64,000 nucleotides of DNA, from assembly GCA_018267965.1 (NCBI GenBank), contig JAFDXK010000001.1, positions 248,001-312,000 of the forward strand, given 5' to 3'. Positions within the stretch are counted from its first letter, which is position 1; each line of letters begins with the position of its first letter. The notes below the pieces were generated by a model, which made no database searches, was not told the DNA's origin, and saw only the letters and a program-made list of their open reading frames with translations. Origin of the DNA: Bacteroidota bacterium (GTDB lineage Bacteria > Bacteroidota > Bacteroidia > Chitinophagales > Chitinophagaceae). This document shows positions 43,635 through 62,461 of the stretch, piece after piece. The translations under genes were made by a program, and so were the position numbers.

Positions 43635-44906
43635 TCACGCCGCCTTACCCAATGGTATCTTAGCTGCATAGTCTTTGAAGTGTGTTTGGAAGAAATAACG
43701 CAGGCAGTCGAAGAGGTCCATTTTATAGATGCCACGGTCTTTTTTGAGCATACCGGGTGTTTCGCTTTCTTCATCTACGGTAGCCAGTGTGCAATCGTTT
43801 ATCAGCAACGGGCAGTTGGTTTGAGATATGAGCAGGTTGGGATATTGATGAAACATACCGTTGATGAGTACGCGGCTGTCGTTGTGTGTCAGGTTGCGGG
43901 TGTTGAGTTGCAGTTGACGTTCTGCAATGTTGAGGTAAGAACGTATCATCTGGTAATAACTGCTGTTGCGGCTTTCAAAACCGATATCTCCCTGTGCACC
44001 ACTGGCATCGCCCGTAACAAACAACATACAACCATCGAACGCAGTGCGTATCTGTAAGCAGAGTTCGTGCAATTGTGCCTTAACGCTAAACTCTTTGATG
44101 ATATGAATAAAGCTATTGTGCTGCCCTTTGTGCTGGCTCATTTGAACGGCTATGCAGGTGAGCGGGTCGCGGTTGAAATCGAAAGAGAGATATACGGGTA
44201 GCTCTTTGATGAAAGGTACAACGGGTTGTGTATGACGTGCTTTATCAAAAGCAAATAACCAGGGTGCATTGTTCTCTCGCAGCCCCCATTCTCCCAGTGC
44301 GTAGATGCGGTATTGGTTTTGATTGTAGAGTTTCAGTTGTTCTATCTGCTCGCGGTCTTTATCGGTAAGATAGGGGTTATCGTGATAGGTGCTTTTAATA
44401 GCAGTGCAATCGGGCACCTCATTATCGAAGAAATGTTTTTTAAGCCAGTGGTCTTCGTGCATGGGGTTGAAGCAGAGCGTGATTTGAATATTCTCCCTGC
44501 CACGTGCACGGCGGTTCAGTTCCAGGAAATCTTCAAACTCCAGTTCGGCGGCTTCTTCTACCAGTATGCGTTCCAGCCCTTCAAAGCTTTTCAGTTTATC
44601 GGGGTCATCCAATCCGCGAAAGATGATTTGCGAGCCATTCTCGTGGGTAAGCGTGCGGTCGCTTTTGTTTTCAGAGAATTGGTCTTTTAGTTCCATCTCG
44701 TCTATACGTGCACGAAAGGATGGTATGACACTATCGCGCAGGGTATTACCTACTTTGCGTATCACAAGGGTTTTGACGTTGCGCTGTGTAGCTATGGTTA
44801 TTTCTTTCTGGGCTGCGCTATAGCTTTTGCCGCTGGCTGTGCCGCCGTAGCTGAGTACAAAACGGGTTTCGGCCTGCATGAGGCGGTGGTATAGGGTGGT
44901 GAACAT
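43635..44906 (-). CDS. Phage terminase large subunit (PBSX/Terminase_3-like)
   Basis: This protein of about 423 aa has Walker A in LSYGGTASGKSYSAAQKE near residue 20 and Walker B in LERILVEEAAELEFEDF. The nuclease domain has the acidic residues in YLSFDFNRDPLTCIAVQ and MLFVTGDASGAQGD, with a C-terminal D in YKMDLFDCLRYFF. Terminases package DNA into the prohead. It starts at MFTTLYHRLMQAETRFVLSY; an A/T-rich extension to 45035 is unlikely. It is on the strand opposite to the other phage genes, and no portal or capsid gene is next to it. Confidence 0.92.
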   Translation of the reverse strand: MFTTLYHRLMQAETRFVLSYGGTASGKSYSAAQKEITIATQRNVKTLVIRKVGNTLRDSVIPSFRARIDEMELKDQFSENKSDRTLTHENGSQIIFRGLDDPDKLKSFEGLERILVEEAAELEFEDFLELNRRARGRENIQITLCFNPMHEDHWLKKHFFDNEVPDCTAIKSTYHDNPYLTDKDREQIEQLKLYNQNQYRIYALGEWGLRENNAPWLFAFDKARHTQPVVPFIKELPVYLSFDFNRDPLTCIAVQMSQHKGQHNSFIHIIKEFSVKAQLHELCLQIRTAFDGCMLFVTGDASGAQGDIGFESRNSSYYQMIRSYLNIAERQLQLNTRNLTHNDSRVLINGMFHQYPNLLISQTNCPLLINDCTLATVDEESETPGMLKKDRGIYKMDLFDCLRYFFQTHFKDYAAKIPLGKAA

Positions 44907-44940
44907 GGTGGTGTTTTTACAGCTACAAAAATACAACAAT

Positions 44941-45213
44941 TTATCCTTTTTCGTAAGAAATGATAGCGGTAATGAGTGCCCATTCCAAATCGGGATGAAT
45001 GGCGTCGCGGTTGGTGATAACACGCCAACCTGCATCGGGGGTATGTTGTAATACAGATACCAGGTTTTCGTTGTTCAGGCTTTGCAGTGATACGGTATAT
45101 TGTATGCTGCCTTCCGGTGTAGTGGCTTTATGGAAATCGCAGAAATAGGATTTGTCTTTGGTGGTTATGGCTTTGAAGAAGGCAAACTCAGGTGTATTAT
45201 CATCACTATGCAT
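44941..45213 (-). CDS. Small phage-associated hypothetical protein
   Basis: This 90-aa protein lies 34 bases upstream of the terminase on the same strand. The sequence FAFFKAITTKDKSYFCDFHK and LVSVLQHTPDAGWRVITNRD is unrecognised. It does not resemble a small terminase. Cotranscription with the terminase is likely. Confidence 0.55.
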   Translation of the reverse strand: MHSDDNTPEFAFFKAITTKDKSYFCDFHKATTPEGSIQYTVSLQSLNNENLVSVLQHTPDAGWRVITNRDAIHPDLEWALITAIISYEKG

Positions 45214-46372: not shown

Positions 46373-46915
46373 TTATTGCTGCGTAGCAGTATATACTACA
46401 TCGGTAGTATAGGTGCCTGCAGGGTATGCAAAGCCCGGCTTAACACGGTATTGTACGGTAAAAGTCTGGTTGCCACCGTTATCGCCACCGTATAAGAATG
46501 TCCAGTTGTTCTGGTCTATATAATCGTAGTTATTGTTTACCCAGCTCCAACCACCTGTAGTATTAGAGGTAAGTTTGAAATTCAATACAGACCATACAGG
46601 CATTACAGGCGCAGGAGTAGTACTACCTGAATATGTAAAGTTGGTTGAGCTTGATTTAACCGAAACGTTAAATGCTTTGTTAGAGCGTACTTTCATTTGG
46701 ATGCCAGAGCTTTCGAGGCCGTTGGCATAATCGTTTACGCTGTTGAAGCTGAAGTTTACCGATGCTCCGGTAGCGCTTCCGTTGCCTACGTAGGTAATGT
46801 CGATAGCATTACTGAGGCTAAGATTGGTTGTTTGTGATGCTGTGCTGGTAACGGACTGTGCATTGGCGTACACAGAACTCATAACAAGCAGAGCGGCGGC
46901 GATGATCTTTTTCAT
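46373..46915 (-). CDS. Secreted beta-sandwich surface protein
   Basis: This 180-aa protein has a signal peptide (IIAAALLVMSSVYANA). Its Ser/Thr/Asn-rich, strand-only mature part (LSLSNAIDITYVGNGSATGA, VNDYANGLESSGIQMKVRSN, YPAGTYTTDVVYTATQQ) is in the style of a WxL-like or fimbrial adhesin domain, though no family is certain. The ATG follows directly on AAAC repeats. The 5' leader contains one CCGUAA hairpin and a promoter region that copies that of the hairpin-array RNA at 50 kb. Confidence 0.65.
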   Translation of the reverse strand: MKKIIAAALLVMSSVYANAQSVTSTASQTTNLSLSNAIDITYVGNGSATGASVNFSFNSVNDYANGLESSGIQMKVRSNKAFNVSVKSSSTNFTYSGSTTPAPVMPVWSVLNFKLTSNTTGGWSWVNNNYDYIDQNNWTFLYGGDNGGNQTFTVQYRVKPGFAYPAGTYTTDVVYTATQQ

Positions 46916-47016
46916 TTTGTTTGTTTGTTTGTTTCCCTTCTCACCTTTGCTGCCTTACGGGGCTGCTTCTCTCTCCCGGTTGTTTTGTTTGTTTGTTTGT
47001 TGTTTGTTCGTTTGTT
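46916..47016 (-). repeat. (AAAC)n tetranucleotide tracts in a surface-gene leader
   Basis: On the minus strand the leader has AAACAAACAAACAAACAAA directly before the ATG (46916-46934) and a second, imperfect tract at 46982-47016. Changes in copy number would alter the space before the start codon. Confidence 0.7.
46949..46966 (-). promoter_or_regulatory. Single CCGUAA hairpin in the leader of the surface gene
   Basis: On the minus strand GCAGCC-CCGTAA-GGCAGC has five of six pairs (one A/A mismatch) and the same six-base loop as the array at 50000-50267. It is 33 bases upstream of the start codon. Confidence 0.55.
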
Positions 47017-47104
47017 GATACAAATATGCAACGGGAAATAGCCTCAGACGAAATTTTGCACGACGGTTAACGCCCGTTTTGCAAGCTGTTAACAGGCGAT
47101 TAAC
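47014..47104 (-). promoter_or_regulatory. Promoter region with triple TTAAC boxes
   Basis: The -7-like TTTGTATCAAC (47014-47024) is followed upstream by GTTAAC at 47066, GTTAAC at 47088 and ATTAAC at 47099. The spacings 52, 22 and 11 are the same as at 50417-50507. Confidence 0.65.
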
Positions 47105-49105: not shown

Positions 49106-49606
49106 TTATAATTTTTGAATTTTATAAGACGATGTAATCAATGTGGCCGTTTTGTCTTTGATAATGACCGTTAGCATATATGCTGCACTGGCAAGAGCGC
49201 TTACATCAATTTGCACGGAGTTATTTCCGGAATTGAGGTCAATATTTTTTTCGGCAATGAGTTGTCCTGTGATGTCTGTAAGCTTGTAGCTGAGCGACTG
49301 GTTTGCCCCGGCATCATAATCCAAGTGAACCATCGTGCTGGCAGGATTAGGATACAGCTTGAGTTTATTTTTTACAGACACATCATTGACGCCCGATGAA
49401 GATTCGAGAGGTTGAAGAATGCCCTGTGTAATAATAATAGACGGAGCCGTAGCTGTATTGACCAGTGTCATTTCACCTACCGACCAGTCGAAGGCTGCGG
49501 TGGCTGTAGTGTATGTGCCCCCGCTGGCATTGAGCGTTGCCGGCTGTGCGTAGGCCTGTATAGCTGCAAGCCACGCAACAATGAGATAGAACATTCGTTT
49601 TTTCAT
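49106..49606 (-). CDS. T9SS type A sorting domain protein, short
   Basis: This 166-aa protein has a signal peptide (FYLIVAWLAAIQAYA), a short mature region (LNASGGTYTTATAAFDWSVG, IIITQGILQPLE) and a full sorting domain (LKLYPNPASTMVHLDYDAGA, KLTDITGQLIAEKNI, SSYKIQKL). Small proteins of this build often precede large fibre-like proteins in Bacteroidota. It lies 23 bases upstream of the fibre gene. Confidence 0.8.
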   Translation of the reverse strand: MKKRMFYLIVAWLAAIQAYAQPATLNASGGTYTTATAAFDWSVGEMTLVNTATAPSIIITQGILQPLESSSGVNDVSVKNKLKLYPNPASTMVHLDYDAGANQSLSYKLTDITGQLIAEKNIDLNSGNNSVQIDVSALASAAYMLTVIIKDKTATLITSSYKIQKL

Positions 49607-49785
49607 ACGCGTATATTTTTATGAAATAAAAAATAATTACATACAAAGTATGCCATAGAAATAATAAAAAGTATGATAATCGTCAGTTTATGATTGATAG
49701 GCCGGAAAGGTTTTGATATCGTTATGGCGGTGTGCTATTTATATACCCATGTAATGAGAGACGGATGATTTGTATAAAAGAAGAA

Positions 49786-49810
49786 AACCACGGTTAGCGA
49801 GACCGTGGTT
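49786..49810 (-). terminator. Terminator of the hairpin-array transcript
   Basis: AACCACGGT / ACCGTGGTT (9 perfect pairs, 7-base loop) is followed on the minus strand by TTCTTCTTTT. It separates the array locus from the T9SS gene start at 49606. Confidence 0.85.
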
Positions 49811-49863
49811 GGAGATATGTTGTGTTTGCAAAAGTAGTTTTACAAACCCGAGTATACTTGTTT

Positions 49864-49947
49864 TTAAATTCCTTTGATGTAGTAAAACTTCAGGCCATGT
49901 TGTTTTGCCTTGCGCACCATTGCTATTATCAATACCATCAGTAACAT
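49864..49947 (-). CDS. Possible small membrane peptide of the array locus
   Basis: The 27-codon frame begins MLLMVLIIAMVRKAKQHG and ends in FYYIKGI. It has a hydrophobic N-terminus and a basic tail, as in type I toxin or small stress peptides. It lies between the hairpin array and the terminator. A peptide this short may be fortuitous. Confidence 0.35.
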   Translation of the reverse strand: MLLMVLIIAMVRKAKQHGLKFYYIKGI

Positions 49948-49999
49948 ACACTTGTAGTTTTATTTATAAAGACAACCAGTGAGGTTGGTTTTAATAGTT

Positions 50000-50267
50000 G
50001 CGGTCTTACGGGACCGCTTGTTTTTTTTGTAGTCTTACGGGACTACGTAATGTCTTAGTGGCTTTTCTCTTCTTTTCGCAGCGTTACGGCGCTACGCTTA
50101 GTCCTCGGCTAGAAGCAACATTACGGTGTTGCGATATCCTGGTCTTTTTTCGTGCCAATCTTACGGGACTGGTCTTTTTGTTTTTGCCAACCTTACGGGG
50201 CCGGTCTTTTTGTTTTTGCCAACCTTACGGGGTTGGTCTTTTATATGTGCTAACCTTACAGGGTTAG
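50000..50267 (-). ncRNA. Array of eight CCGUAA-loop hairpins
   Basis: Eight 18-base units, each with a 6-bp stem and 6-base loop, start at 50000, 50029, 50078, 50115, 50155, 50187, 50219 and 50250. On the minus strand seven loops read CCGTAA and one CTGTAA. The stems differ (GCGGTC, GTAGTC, GTAGCG, GCAACA, CCAGTC, CCGGCC, CCAACC, CTAACC) but always pair. The four non-Watson-Crick pairs are all G:U on the minus strand and A/C on the plus strand, so the RNA is read from the minus strand. Linkers are A-rich (AAAAACAAAAAGACC). The 732 bases from 49607 to 50507 otherwise hold only tiny frames. Confidence 0.75.
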
Positions 50268-50285
50268 TCTTTTTTCTTTTTTGTG

Positions 50286-50375
50286 CTATCCAATAAAGTG
50301 GAAGCGTCTGCTAACTTCTTGCTTGCTTTCAAATAGTCTGCGTAAACCGGATGCAAGCGATAATACTTTTTTCAT
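50286..50375 (-). CDS. Possible leader peptide upstream of the hairpin array
   Basis: The 29-codon frame begins MKKVLSLASGLRRLFESKQE and ends in SRRFHFIG. It is basic and amphipathic. The frame starts about 45 bases after the -7-like element and ends 18 bases before the first hairpin of the array. It may be a leader peptide or accidental. Confidence 0.35.
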   Translation of the reverse strand: MKKVLSLASGLRRLFESKQEVSRRFHFIG

Positions 50376-50416
50376 AATCTTCGTAAGAGCGTTTTGGTTT
50401 TTTATTGTTTTAGTTT

Positions 50417-50507
50417 GTTGATACAAAGATTAGTTGTGCGGCGAGCATATGAGAAATTTTTGTGTTTGGTTAACACCAAATTTGCAATCGGTTAACAAGC
50501 CGTTAAC
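50417..50507 (-). promoter_or_regulatory. Promoter region of the hairpin-array RNA with triple GTTAAC boxes
   Basis: TTTGTATCAAC at 50417-50427 is the -7-like element on the minus strand. GTTAAC boxes start at 50469, 50491 and 50502. The spacings 52, 22 and 11 match those upstream of the surface gene at 46915 exactly. Confidence 0.7.
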
Positions 50508-50657
50508 AATTGATTTTCAGTCTATTATGGCTCAAAAGTGCTGCCAGTAAGGGTTTTTGCGTATTTATACGGTTGCATTTCCATATTTTTATTAATTATA
50601 TTGTGCATCTGATAACAATACTCAAACAACAACAAACAATACAAAAAACTAACTACC

Positions 50658-50840
50658 ATGGGAGAGATACAATTTCCGCATGAAGCGTCTGAGCTATCAG
50701 CCTTTGCGGTTTCAGTGGGCGTATACGTCATATCGCTGAAAAATGGGAAAATCATCAGCCATGTACCCGATGATGAAGACCGGTTTTATGAATGGCTCGT
50801 TGAAAGCGGCGCCCGCGACATCACCGATAAGCTGAATTAG
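50658..50840 (+). CDS. Small hypothetical protein
   Basis: This 60-aa acidic protein (GEIQFPHEASELSAFAVSVG, VYVISLKNGKIISHVPDDED) has no signal peptide. The pattern is a single small alpha/beta domain. It starts after an ACAACAAACAATAC leader. The family is unknown. Confidence 0.5.
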   Translation: MGEIQFPHEASELSAFAVSVGVYVISLKNGKIISHVPDDEDRFYEWLVESGARDITDKLN

Positions 50841-51265: not shown

Positions 51266-52357
51266 AGGGTATCCTATTGTATTTTAGATACTATAATATG
51301 ATGCCATTTTTGAGCAAAAAACAGTCAAAAAACTGCTTGAAACTTTCGTTTTCGTCTAAAATCGCATTGCTTTAAAACATCCGTTTTTGTATCTTCTATG
51401 CAATAGAAACGCATAAAAATTGCCACTTCGCAGCCTTTCATTTTATGATTTCCTGGCAAATTTTTCCACTGAGGAACAATGCCTGAATTTCTATGCCAAG
51501 TTGCGTTGGGGTAAAAGGCCGATATGTCCATATTGCTACAGCAAAAGGTCTTATGCTTATAAATGCCGTCCTGTGTATTGTTGTAAAAGCTGTAAGGCAC
51601 AGTATAATGCCAAGACTGGAACCATATTTGCAAACAGTCATATTCCATTATCAAGGTGGTTTATGGTGTATTATTTTCTAACTACTGAAACGTATGGAGT
51701 ATCTTCTATAAAACTTTCAAAATGGACTAACCTACCTCAGAAAACAGTTTGGAGGATGCAGCAGAAAATACGTAACACTATCGGTGACGATATTGAGTTT
51801 CTAAGTGGTGTAGTTGAGGTAGATGAGTGTTACATCGGGCCTAAGCCAAGGAGGTATGACCGCAGAAGATACAAACGAGGTAGAGGTTCTGAACTTAAAA
51901 CGCCTGTATTTGGGTTGCTTCAACGTGACGGTAAACTACGAATTATGCCCGTTAAGGATGTAACATCTAAAACACTACAACGGCTCATATACGATTATGT
52001 AGAAGACGGAAGTACAATAATGTCAGATGAATTTAAGTCATACTGGGGTTTAGATAGGTTGTATATTCATAAGCAGGTTTTCCATGCTGAAAGACAATAC
52101 GTGAACGGTGATGCACATGTAAACGGGTTAGAAGGTGCATGGGCGCATCTTAAAAGAACAATGCGGACTTATATAAGACCGAGTAAGAACTATCTGCATT
52201 TATACTGTAACGAGTTTGAGTTTAGGTATAACAACAGGAATAAATCGCTATACATTCAATTCACTAATGCGATGAGCCTTGCCTCTAAAAAGGTAAAAGG
52301 CGGTAAACCATACTGTTAAAACAGTCAAATCTTTATATTTTTACAATAGGCGTGTCC
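51266..52357 (+). mobile_element. IS1595-family insertion sequence
   Basis: The transposase at 51420 is bracketed by imperfect inverted ends that share CCTATTGTA (left AGGGTATCCTATTGTA at 51266, right complement GGACACGCCTATTGTA ending at 52357). No clear 8-bp target duplication is visible, so the ends are approximate. Confidence 0.6.
51420..52319 (+). CDS. IS1595 (ISXO2-like) family transposase
   Basis: The protein has about 299 aa. An N-terminal zinc ribbon (CPYC ... CCKSC) is followed by an HTH-like region (YGVSSIKLSKWTNLPQKTVW). The DDE-type ISXO2-like catalytic domain has D in VVEVDECYIG, D in STIMSDEFKSYWG, and the N/E-type residues in HVNGLEGAWAHLKRTM. The length is normal for the family. 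The start is a TTG, so translation may begin elsewhere. It appears intact. Confidence 0.92.
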   Translation: MPLRSLSFYDFLANFSTEEQCLNFYAKLRWGKRPICPYCYSKRSYAYKCRPVYCCKSCKAQYNAKTGTIFANSHIPLSRWFMVYYFLTTETYGVSSIKLSKWTNLPQKTVWRMQQKIRNTIGDDIEFLSGVVEVDECYIGPKPRRYDRRRYKRGRGSELKTPVFGLLQRDGKLRIMPVKDVTSKTLQRLIYDYVEDGSTIMSDEFKSYWGLDRLYIHKQVFHAERQYVNGDAHVNGLEGAWAHLKRTMRTYIRPSKNYLHLYCNEFEFRYNNRNKSLYIQFTNAMSLASKKVKGGKPYC

Positions 52358-60073: not shown

Positions 60074-62461
60074 ATGGCAGACGTAATAGAGGCTATTCAC
60101 AGAATTACCTACGAGGTAGATGATAGCGCACTACAAAAAGTGCAAAAGGTGATACAACTGCAAATACAGGAATTCAATCTCCTGAATAAGACTTTGCTGG
60201 ATATTCAAAAACAGATAGAGCGTACAGGGAAAAACGAAACAGCTGCACTGGAAGAATTATCGCGTAAGCTGGATGGCATAATGGGCAAACTGAACGCCAA
60301 TATTGGTAAGACCAAAGGCCTGATGGAGCAGTTTGGTGATGGACTACTGAAAGCTGCTGGTGCAGGAGATGGGCTGGAGGGGATAGTAAGTGATTTTTTA
60401 AAACCGTTTATTGAAGGCTTACCCGAATTGATTGGTGGTGCAACCACGATAGAAGCCGTTGCCGCAGAGGTGTTTTCTTTTAGTAATATAGTTACAGGTG
60501 CGATTGCGATATTAACCGTATTGGGAGAGACGTTTTTATCATCTTCTGACGATGCCGGCAAACTAAAGGAAGAGCTGAAAAATGTTGCTGATAATGGTAA
60601 GAGAGTTGGAGCAGCAGCAGCAGGCGAAATGTCGCAATTGTTTGTATTGAGGGCGACGATACAAAATGTAACCCTGAATTACAGTAAACGCAATGAAGCC
60701 GTAAGCCAGCTATTGAAGCTGTATCCCGAATATTTTAGTAAACTGAGCAGAGAAGAAATACTTGCCGGAAGAGTAGGGGATGCTTATGGGCGTATCATTG
60801 AGAATATATTGGCAAATGCAAGGGTGCAAGTGTTGAATGATAACCTCAAGACTAGTCTAGGTACTCTTGAAAGTGTTAAAGACGAAATTGAAAAGCTGAA
60901 GGGGACTAAGATAACAGATAAGGACCTTGGCTTAGGAGTGTCATTATTTGGAAGTGTACCAACATATAATATCCCACTGGATGCCAGATTTGAAGGTAAG
61001 CATATAGATATACTGCTAAAGAAAATTGCAGAATATAATAATCTAGCCAATGATATAAATACGACAACAGGCAAGATTGTACAATTACAGAATGAAATTG
61101 ATAAAGGAAAACCTAAGCCTGGGGGCGAAGGAGGCTTAGTGCAGGCAACGCCTAAAGAAGATGCTTATCAAAAGGAGCGTGATAGACTTGATGCAGAAGC
61201 TGAGAAAATAAGAGTGAATGATGAGCAGATCAAAGGCATTCGCAAACAACGTGATGATATTGAAAAACAATACACTGCGCTTTACAAGTCGGATATTGAA
61301 GCAGGACGGCAAATAACCCTTGAAGAAAGGAATAAAAGGGAAGAGGATTATACAGCGGCAGTAGAGAAACTGAACCTGGCAGAAGATATAAGAAATAATG
61401 AACTGGAGCAGGCACAGGTGAAAGAAGAATTGAGCCTCGCAGAGCGATTTAAAAAGCAGCAGGACATTGTAAAGCTTACAGAACAACTTGCCAACTTGCA
61501 AAGTAAATCTGCAGAGCTAGAACACAAGCAGGCGTTGAACAATGTGGGTATCACAACCGAACAGCCTGCAACACAAGCTGCACAACAAGAAAAGAAATAT
61601 TCACCCGGGAAAGGAGAAAAATTTGTTTTTGGTAAGGATGCAGAAATACCTGATGCTGAAGGCCGCAGACGCGCTGAAATTAAGAAGTCGGTAGATGCGT
61701 ATAAATCACTTACGGAAAGTGCGGTGCAGGCTTTTCAAACTATTTATGATGCACAGGTAAAAGCACTGGATGCAGAAATAGAAATACGCAAGCAACGTGT
61801 AGATGCTGCCGCTAAACTGGCAGAGCGGGGTAATACCGAAGCTCTGAAGCAAGAGCAGGACAGATTGAATGCTGTATTGAAAAAACGTGAAGAATATGCA
61901 AGGCGACAACAGATATTGAATTCTGCACTTGCAGTATCGAATGCGATAGTAGCAGTAGCCGAAGCAGCCAGTGAGACAGGTGCAGGAGCGATAGTGATAG
62001 TACCTGCTGTGATAGCAGCCATTGTCGCAGGATATGCAGCCATATCTGCTGCTACGAAAGAAAGCAGCGCACAAGCCTATGCAGATGGGGTGGTAGACTT
62101 TAAAGGTAAAGGCGGCCCGCGTGATGATGCCAATTGGGTAAGAATATCGAGCGGGGAGAGTGTGATAACGGCTGAGGGTACGAAGAAAAACCGCACATTG
62201 CTTGAGGCTATCAATAAGGGTGCGGCATTGCAATTCATTAATCCTGCATTGGCGTATACTATGCCCACTTTTGCCCAACCGCAGTTATCAGTGCAGGGAT
62301 ATGCTTCTCAATATGATTTGCGTGCCGTGGAAAATAAACTGGATAATGTGGTGAATGCCATTGAAGATAACCGCATGAAACAGAATATCTACTTCAATGA
62401 ACATGGTGTCGGGCTGATGACAGAACGCGCCATCAACAGAGAAAGAAAAAGATGGAAATAA
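60074..62461 (+). CDS. Phage tail tape measure protein
   Basis: This 795-aa protein has an N-terminal helical region (YEVDDSALQKVQKVIQLQIQ), a hydrophobic middle (IVTGAIAILTVLGETFL), and long coiled coils (residues about 370-500, rich in E, K and Q). A second hydrophobic segment is GAIVIVPAVIAAIVAGYAAI. The C-terminal motif VRISSGESVITAEGTKKN is the usual end of tape measures. These set tail length and assist DNA passage. It is cut off from the chaperones by the three lipoprotein genes. Confidence 0.88.
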   Translation: MADVIEAIHRITYEVDDSALQKVQKVIQLQIQEFNLLNKTLLDIQKQIERTGKNETAALEELSRKLDGIMGKLNANIGKTKGLMEQFGDGLLKAAGAGDGLEGIVSDFLKPFIEGLPELIGGATTIEAVAAEVFSFSNIVTGAIAILTVLGETFLSSSDDAGKLKEELKNVADNGKRVGAAAAGEMSQLFVLRATIQNVTLNYSKRNEAVSQLLKLYPEYFSKLSREEILAGRVGDAYGRIIENILANARVQVLNDNLKTSLGTLESVKDEIEKLKGTKITDKDLGLGVSLFGSVPTYNIPLDARFEGKHIDILLKKIAEYNNLANDINTTTGKIVQLQNEIDKGKPKPGGEGGLVQATPKEDAYQKERDRLDAEAEKIRVNDEQIKGIRKQRDDIEKQYTALYKSDIEAGRQITLEERNKREEDYTAAVEKLNLAEDIRNNELEQAQVKEELSLAERFKKQQDIVKLTEQLANLQSKSAELEHKQALNNVGITTEQPATQAAQQEKKYSPGKGEKFVFGKDAEIPDAEGRRRAEIKKSVDAYKSLTESAVQAFQTIYDAQVKALDAEIEIRKQRVDAAAKLAERGNTEALKQEQDRLNAVLKKREEYARRQQILNSALAVSNAIVAVAEAASETGAGAIVIVPAVIAAIVAGYAAISAATKESSAQAYADGVVDFKGKGGPRDDANWVRISSGESVITAEGTKKNRTLLEAINKGAALQFINPALAYTMPTFAQPQLSVQGYASQYDLRAVENKLDNVVNAIEDNRMKQNIYFNEHGVGLMTERAINRERKRWK

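Follow-up and report, generated by a model that had tools for sequence, protein, structure and literature searches.

The hairpin array and its locus

The window, that is, the whole stretch of 64,000 nucleotides analysed here, contains eight hairpins on the minus strand at positions 50000–50267. Each has two six-base stem arms and a six-base loop, the latter being CCGTAA in seven hairpins and CTGTAA in one, at the site and on the strand where the sequence-only reading had placed them. Its statement that the 6+6+6 geometry is fixed holds for the six-base-pair stems and the six-base loops, but the hairpin at 50078–50095 has a seventh pair. Similarly, the stems were said to differ completely, which is true of hairpins 5–8, whereas hairpins 1–4 are framed alike on the outside, by CC/GG or, in hairpin 1, by CT/AG. 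The core of the array consists of separate hairpins joined by linkers that are A-rich on both sides. The promoter-like region and the terminator ascribed to the unit are both present, and so are the two possible short frames. The features of the locus are as follows, with the source of each in parentheses.

50658–50840, plus strand: divergent gene encoding a 60-aa protein (sequence; profile and relatives searches)
50469–50496, minus strand: motif GTTAAC-N3-TTGnAAA-N6-GTTAAC, promoter-proximal, within 11-bp-phased TTGTTAACC-like repeats (genome-wide motif scan)
50424–50431, minus strand: possible -7 element AATCTTTG, one mismatch to the Bacteroidota consensus TANNTTTG (sequence)
50286–50375, minus strand: putative 29-codon frame (MKKVLSLASGLRRLFESKQEVSRRFHFIG) preceding the array (sequence)
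50250–50267, minus strand: hairpin 1, CTAACC-CTGTAA-GGTTAG (sequence scan)
50219–50236, minus strand: hairpin 2, CCAACC-CCGTAA-GGTTGG (sequence scan)
50187–50204, minus strand: hairpin 3, CCGGCC-CCGTAA-GGTTGG (sequence scan)
50155–50172, minus strand: hairpin 4, CCAGTC-CCGTAA-GATTGG (sequence scan)
50115–50132, minus strand: hairpin 5, GCAACA-CCGTAA-TGTTGC (sequence scan; alignment of orthologues)
50078–50095, minus strand: hairpin 6, GTAGCG-CCGTAA-CGCTGC (sequence scan; alignment of orthologues)
50063–50076, minus strand: unpaired AAAAGAAGAGAAAA (alignment of seven genomes)
50029–50046, minus strand: hairpin 7, GTAGTC-CCGTAA-GACTAC (sequence scan)
50000–50017, minus strand: hairpin 8, GCGGTC-CCGTAA-GACCGC (sequence scan; alignment)
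49864–49947, minus strand: putative 27-codon frame 3' of the array (sequence)
49786–49810, minus strand: intrinsic terminator of the unit, nine pairs followed by a U tract (terminator scan)

The -7 consensus is the one given in PMC6847099. The transcript would start a few bases downstream of the -7-like element.

The sequence-only reading had proposed a comparison with Rfam. The search of the 64 kb window with Rfam 15 gave no match at the gathering threshold. In the region 49500–50800, with E-values up to 5, there were three matches only, to purD, a snoRNA and sau-41; the best of them, purD, lies on the plus strand (E 0.18; 22 bits, the threshold being 41) and was taken as chance. Among the papers listed for CCGUAA none was related, as judged by the title and the opening of the abstract, and the literature searches for a Bacteroidetes CsrB-type sponge and for a Chitinophagaceae small RNA hairpin found none. 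Going by these Rfam and literature searches, the RNA is undescribed.

Distribution in related genomes

The distribution of the array is narrow. Arrays are present in nine of the 15 genomes of the genus, including the genome studied here, and contain 6–11 hairpins. Each is situated behind the promoter motif and adjoins a divergent gene encoding a protein of 59–61 aa. The DNA search in 99 relatives yielded array-like loci in six genus mates, and a two-hairpin pattern has matches in seven of the 15 genus genomes, again counting our own. The arrays of G009 and G014, six hairpins each, were seen by reading the region beside the divergent gene; all six loops in each are CCGTAA, while the stems are mostly different. 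No array was found in G001, G003, G005, G010, G011 and G013.

At the level of the family, search R2 was applied with stricter filters to 394 genomes, among them ten of the 15 genomes of the array genus (G003, G010, G011 and G013 were in this sample, G001 and G005 outside it). Matches with E below 1e-5 come only from the array genus and from G018, which belongs to another genus; the next best match has E of 7e-5. In the latter genus (g5), G018, G376 and G420 have five, three and three CCGTAA hairpins, respectively, in a 3' region before thyA. In three loci outside the array genus (L224, L225, L226), 3–5 CCGTAA hairpins are located between a lipoprotein-like gene and thyA (both named by eye), the last hairpin being terminator-like. 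Among the matches of search R1 in 294 family genomes, 12 loci were inspected: L216 is the G018 array, L214, L217 and L221 have one CNGTAA hairpin each followed by a T-rich tract, and the other eight have no CNGTAA hairpin by the criterion used. A triple-loop pattern applied to the 394 family genomes was discarded as too noisy, its reversed control also matching many genomes. Three matches to genome contigs (L142, L143, L145) were taken as chance, since there is no array and at most one such hairpin (in L142). Plasmid records gave no match, and viral contigs gave none to the two-hairpin pattern.

The divergent gene adjoins the array in all nine array genomes and also occurs where no array was found. 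Its family has no Pfam or NCBIfam match above the curated cut-off. The number of matches reaches 12 per genome (G002); the family includes the loci L227–L241. Because of these numerous copies and the presence of the gene in genomes with no array found, its product is a poor candidate for a protein binding the array, and co-occurrence does not support this role.

On the other side of the array, six relatives have a frame of 31 codons in the place of the 27-codon frame of the window. It is coding-like: the variable columns number 27, 18 and 12 at the third, first and second codon positions, respectively (31 columns each), and the pairwise codon differences comprise 126 synonymous and 187 non-synonymous ones. 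In the loci L007–L012 the 31-codon frame downstream of the array has the conserved pattern M[LI]T...RR.S.YP and an excess of changes at third codon positions. The locus L166 has a 31-codon frame with the same promoter motif. By eye, the putative 29-codon frame of the window resembles these 31-codon frames of the relatives. No small frame was seen by eye 3' of the arrays in G009 and G014, whose loops are all CCGTAA on mostly other stems, and hence it is the array and not the peptide that is the shared part.

Conservation of the loop

As the background for the array, we considered both strands of 800 kb of its genome (about 21%), sampled as 40 pieces of 20 kb on two contigs, with the window excluded. 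Hairpins with at least five of six pairs, at least three of them G-C, and a CNGTAA loop number ten in this entire sample, or six if CGGTAA is set aside, against eight in 270 bases here. Hence the array is neither a chance occurrence nor a general habit of the genome. The loop itself could be a generic one, but in 864 kb of this genome only two out of 152 terminator-like hairpins have CCGTAA, and in 800 kb, where every hairpin was counted once per strand, it is the loop of two out of 268 hexaloop hairpins with seven-pair stems. Thus the hairpins and terminators of this genome usually have other loops, and this explanation was rejected. Some preference for CCGTAA does exist. It recurs in terminators 3' of some pilin-like paralogs and in single terminators of other members of the family, and, as the loop of hairpin 8 in relatives, it accounts for six of 47 terminator-like hairpins in the cluster loci.

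Since a search for CNGTAA returns nothing else, the loops were counted by a loop-blind scan that demanded the 6+6+6 geometry, at least five pairs, three G-C pairs and a formed closing pair. In the nine arrays, 69 of the 71 hairpins found in this way have CNGTAA. The two exceptions are both hairpin 6, in G004 and G002, with the loops TGAAAG and CCTGAA. The second loop base in the 79 CNGTAA occurrences is C in 71 cases, T in six and A in two. When seven 3' modules are aligned, all 21 orthologues of hairpins 5, 7 and 8 retain CNGTAA, including the seven of hairpin 5, where the stems are other. In hairpin 6 it is retained in two of the seven genomes and not in the other five. The counterpart of hairpin 8 in six relatives is terminator-like, its loop being the same. 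The seven aligned genomes do not differ in the unpaired AAAAGAAGAGAAAA that follows hairpin 6. It is possible that this segment, 50063–50076 in the window, is a second binding site.

Covariation of the stems

When no pairing filter is applied, 78 of the 79 CNGTAA occurrences in the nine arrays are flanked by arms forming at least four of six pairs. They represent 40 distinct stems, in which 216 of 240 positions pair, while the mean of 5000 shuffles is 160 and their maximum 181. When genus g5 is included and at least four pairs are demanded, there are 89 units and 47 distinct stems with 257 of 282 positions paired (shuffled mean 187, maximum 206). The stem comprises exactly six pairs, as the seventh position is paired in 10 of 39 cases against a shuffle mean of 8.9. 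The weakest pair is the fourth one, unpaired in nine of the 47 distinct stems.

Compensatory changes were assessed in two alignments. In 23 two-hairpin stretches, hand-chosen for diversity out of 62 filtered ones, both sides change at all 12 pairs, with 57 cells against 15.5 in shuffles (0 of 500); the signal is destroyed when the partner is slid. In the unfiltered 3' module of seven genomes, with the structure predicted from the same alignment as was tested, nine pairs have two-sided changes against 3.4 after shuffling, and four of the five measures lie above all 500 shuffles, whereas the fifth, the number of further pair types, is not exceptional (16 against 15.6). All these counts are not those of independent events, since units of one array are related. 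Stems failing to covary in homologous loci had been named beforehand as grounds for giving up the idea; the stems of these loci do covary. We consider it very probable that this is a real class of structured RNA with stems covarying around a constant loop.

Strand of transcription

The four wobble pairs of the window are G:U on the minus strand and A/C on the plus strand, and this was initially regarded as proof of selection on the minus-strand RNA. The observation stands for the window but not for the relatives, where 13 G:U pairs are seen against 11 A/C. Among 34 distinct stems from seven genomes the asymmetry disappears, 17 stems being fully paired in each orientation, and thus the wobble pairs were rejected as evidence of the strand. 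The mean folding energies are -5.6 kcal/mol for the minus-type and -6.3 kcal/mol for the plus-type strand, the latter being slightly more stable. The direction of transcription is suggested instead by the promoter motif and the terminator, by the small frame that looks coding in six relatives, and by the way the co-regulated genes are oriented. The RNA predicted from these would be read from the minus strand, beginning near 50420, ending at 49786 and measuring about 630 nt. Its minimum free energy fold contains all eight hairpins, with z = -2.6 relative to 20 shuffles.

The promoter motif and leader hairpins

The motif GTTAAC-N3-TTRnAAA-N6-GTTAAC is present in 14 of the 15 genus genomes, often before secreted pilin-like and small genes. 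We take its spacing to resemble that of LytTR-type direct repeats. In the genome considered here there are ten sites with at most one mismatch, and none for the reversed control: seven precede secreted pilin-like genes, one precedes the array, one a short frame, and one is at a contig end. The motif is also situated upstream of the arrays of the relatives (with two mismatches in G009 and G014). The six array genomes surveyed contain 91 sites, 13–18 in each, the reversed control again yielding zero. Hence the array has a candidate promoter motif in common with secreted pilin-like genes. One of the latter is located near the array.

47066–47093, minus strand: the promoter motif again, here before the pilin-like gene (motif scan)
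46949–46966, minus strand: single leader hairpin GCAGCC-CCGTAA-GGCAGC, with an A.A mismatch at pair 4 (search R2, E = 0.007)
46373–46915, minus strand: secreted pilin-like protein (a descriptive name), co-regulated by the motif (sequence)

Neither Pfam nor NCBIfam has a match to the protein at E up to 1. The hairpin in the leader lies about 33 bases before the start codon.

It had been suggested that the same loop be sought both in arrays and in single leaders, and it is found in both. In the six array genomes we considered 85 motif sites not belonging to arrays, with 200 bases downstream of each. CNGTAA hairpins occur in seven of these leaders, whereas about 0.1 would be expected from ten hairpins per 1.6 Mb of strand in the background, which is mostly coding sequence. 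The leaders contain one to three hairpins each and belong to two types of genes, the pilin-like gene adjacent to the array (G002, G004, G007) and a gene encoding a 93-aa protein 8–16 kb away (G002, G006, G008, G012). The remaining 78 leaders have no CNGTAA hairpin, nor does the leader of the 93-aa gene in our genome. At 30 of the 56 motif sites in the other eight genus genomes (including G009 and G014; two pairs of sites overlap), no leader hairpin was seen.

Possible function

Our preferred interpretation, to which we assign a probability of about 45%, is that the array RNA may be a decoy for a protein, with the logic of CsrB but with another loop. It is suggested by the combination of one loop with changing stems of a fixed length, repeated 6–11 times in the array RNA and one to three times in leaders of the same regulon. 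The idea of a protein sponge, advanced in the sequence-only reading, gains strength from the fact that the leaders of two co-regulated gene types close by have hairpins of this kind as well. The array RNA would be transcribed from the promoter type common to secreted pilin-like genes. Each hairpin would provide one site for a putative RNA-binding protein that reads the loop and the geometry of the stem and not most of its sequence. The array would titrate this protein off the one to three leader hairpins of the two nearby target types, the array-adjacent pilin-like gene and the 93-aa gene 8–16 kb away, and the titration would change the translation or stability of the target mRNAs. We infer the protein, its titration and the direction of the effect from the sequence. 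The complete scheme is more tentative: a CsrA-independent circuit of the Bacteroidota, in which the putative protein reads the CNGUAA hexaloop on a six-pair stem, represses or stabilises the mRNAs of a surface protein and a neighbouring small protein through hairpins in their leaders, and is titrated by the array RNA of the same regulon.

Alternatively, the hairpins could be a structural or stability element protecting the transcript without a dedicated factor, for example, as a stable leader of the small frame. The coding-like 31-codon frame after the array in six genomes fits this, and CCGTAA hairpins do occur as single terminators in relatives and after pilin-like paralogs. However, the arrays of G009 and G014 are not accompanied by such a frame, as judged by eye, and stability alone does not need a single loop across unrelated stems. 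We consider this explanation unlikely, although it is the first to be kept in mind after the decoy.

It is still less likely that the RNA acts by base pairing, the loops forming kissing complexes with UUACGG in target RNAs or serving as an antisense sponge. The loop is constant, as this would demand, and the CUGUAA variant would still pair with UUACGG via G:U, but the two CAGTAA variants could not pair fully. Moreover, UUACGG is not enriched near the 593 predicted gene starts in the 864 kb sample (5 seen, 9.3 expected), where it ranks 116th among 180 hexamers of the same composition.

The plus strand deserves mention, as 58 of 78 units have at least five U in the eight bases after the plus-strand stem; on the minus-type strand, a hairpin with a U tract is formed by six of the 78, one per genome in six genomes. 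Hence the array might be a series of tandem antisense terminators, GC-rich plus-strand hairpins with U-rich tracts insulating the divergent gene. The slightly higher stability of the plus-strand folds agrees with this, and the region 49600–50700 contains four terminator-like sites on the plus strand, three of them being hairpins of the array (six sites on both strands together, against 1.0 in shuffles). On the other hand, terminators do not require a constant loop, the A-rich linkers occur on both sides, and two bases, often TC, separate the stem from the U tract. The hairpins in the mRNA leaders would be left unexplained, and the loci read show no close plus-strand gene aimed into the array. 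We rate this possibility slightly below base pairing.

Finally, ToxI RNAs consist of near-identical pseudoknot repeats beside a toxin gene, and the array has in common with them the tandem RNA units, here behind one promoter. However, these units are simple hairpins whose stems diverge within one array, and none of the seven window proteins scanned has a ToxN-type Pfam match, so that a type III antitoxin neutralising an endoribonuclease is most improbable.

Comparison with known systems

The closest parallel to the decoy proposed here is provided by CsrB and CsrC and by RsmX, RsmY and RsmZ, which sequester CsrA and RsmA, respectively. They are non-coding RNAs whose many hairpins repeat a single loop motif, which also occurs in mRNA leaders. 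The Csr system, with the best-known decoy RNAs of repeated loops, is widespread in the Gammaproteobacteria; CsrB of E. coli contains 22 GGA sequences, and among 55 CsrA ligands selected by SELEX, 44 hairpins have a six-base loop (PMC7652899). The leader counterpart in our case is formed by the seven of 85 motif leaders and that of the pilin-like gene in the window, all of them putative targets. GGA loops were not found, the array loops being CNGTAA or, in the two exceptions, TGAAAG and CCTGAA. Without GGA in its loops or a match to any covariance model, the array falls outside the CsrB family. To our knowledge, CsrA is generally absent from the Bacteroidota.

Another RNA family of the Bacteroidota linked to a global RNA-binding protein is FopS/GibS with RbpB in Bacteroides thetaiotaomicron. 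In FopS, as described in PMC11697453, the 5' part is single-stranded and contains a seed, and a single terminator hairpin follows, unlike the eight separate hairpins with A-rich linkers of the array. The GUCCY-hairpin (Weinberg 2010, PMC2864571) is a motif listed for the Bacteroidetes and Proteobacteria in a table that gives no Rfam number. Some units of the array contain GUCCC, and the array may or may not belong to this motif.

New here are the promoter motif common to the array and the secreted pilin-like genes, and the leader hairpins in two gene types. If the decoy interpretation is true, the loop, and so presumably the protein, would be different from those of Csr, making this an independent invention of Csr-type control logic in the Bacteroidota. 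The 6+6+6 geometry and the loop, kept over freely changing stems, make a ready bait for a protein search.

Mobile elements near the array

An IS1595-type transposase gene (PF12762) is located near the array, at 51420–52319. Several arrays, including that of the window, are also situated near a phage-like cluster with the large subunit of terminase (PF04466) and a tape-measure-like gene (43635–45035 and 60074–62461 in the window; loci L243–L254). The terminase has one match each in nine other genus genomes, with 67–76% identity, a match in two pieces in a tenth, G012, and a weak match in G003; it was not found in G005, G009 and G014. Thus array and terminase come apart in both directions: G009 and G014 lack this terminase despite their arrays, and in G001, G010, G011 and G013 the terminase is present but the array was not found. 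The array therefore shows no tie to the terminase and tape-measure cluster, and a phage origin was rejected. The cluster itself could be a domesticated phage element.
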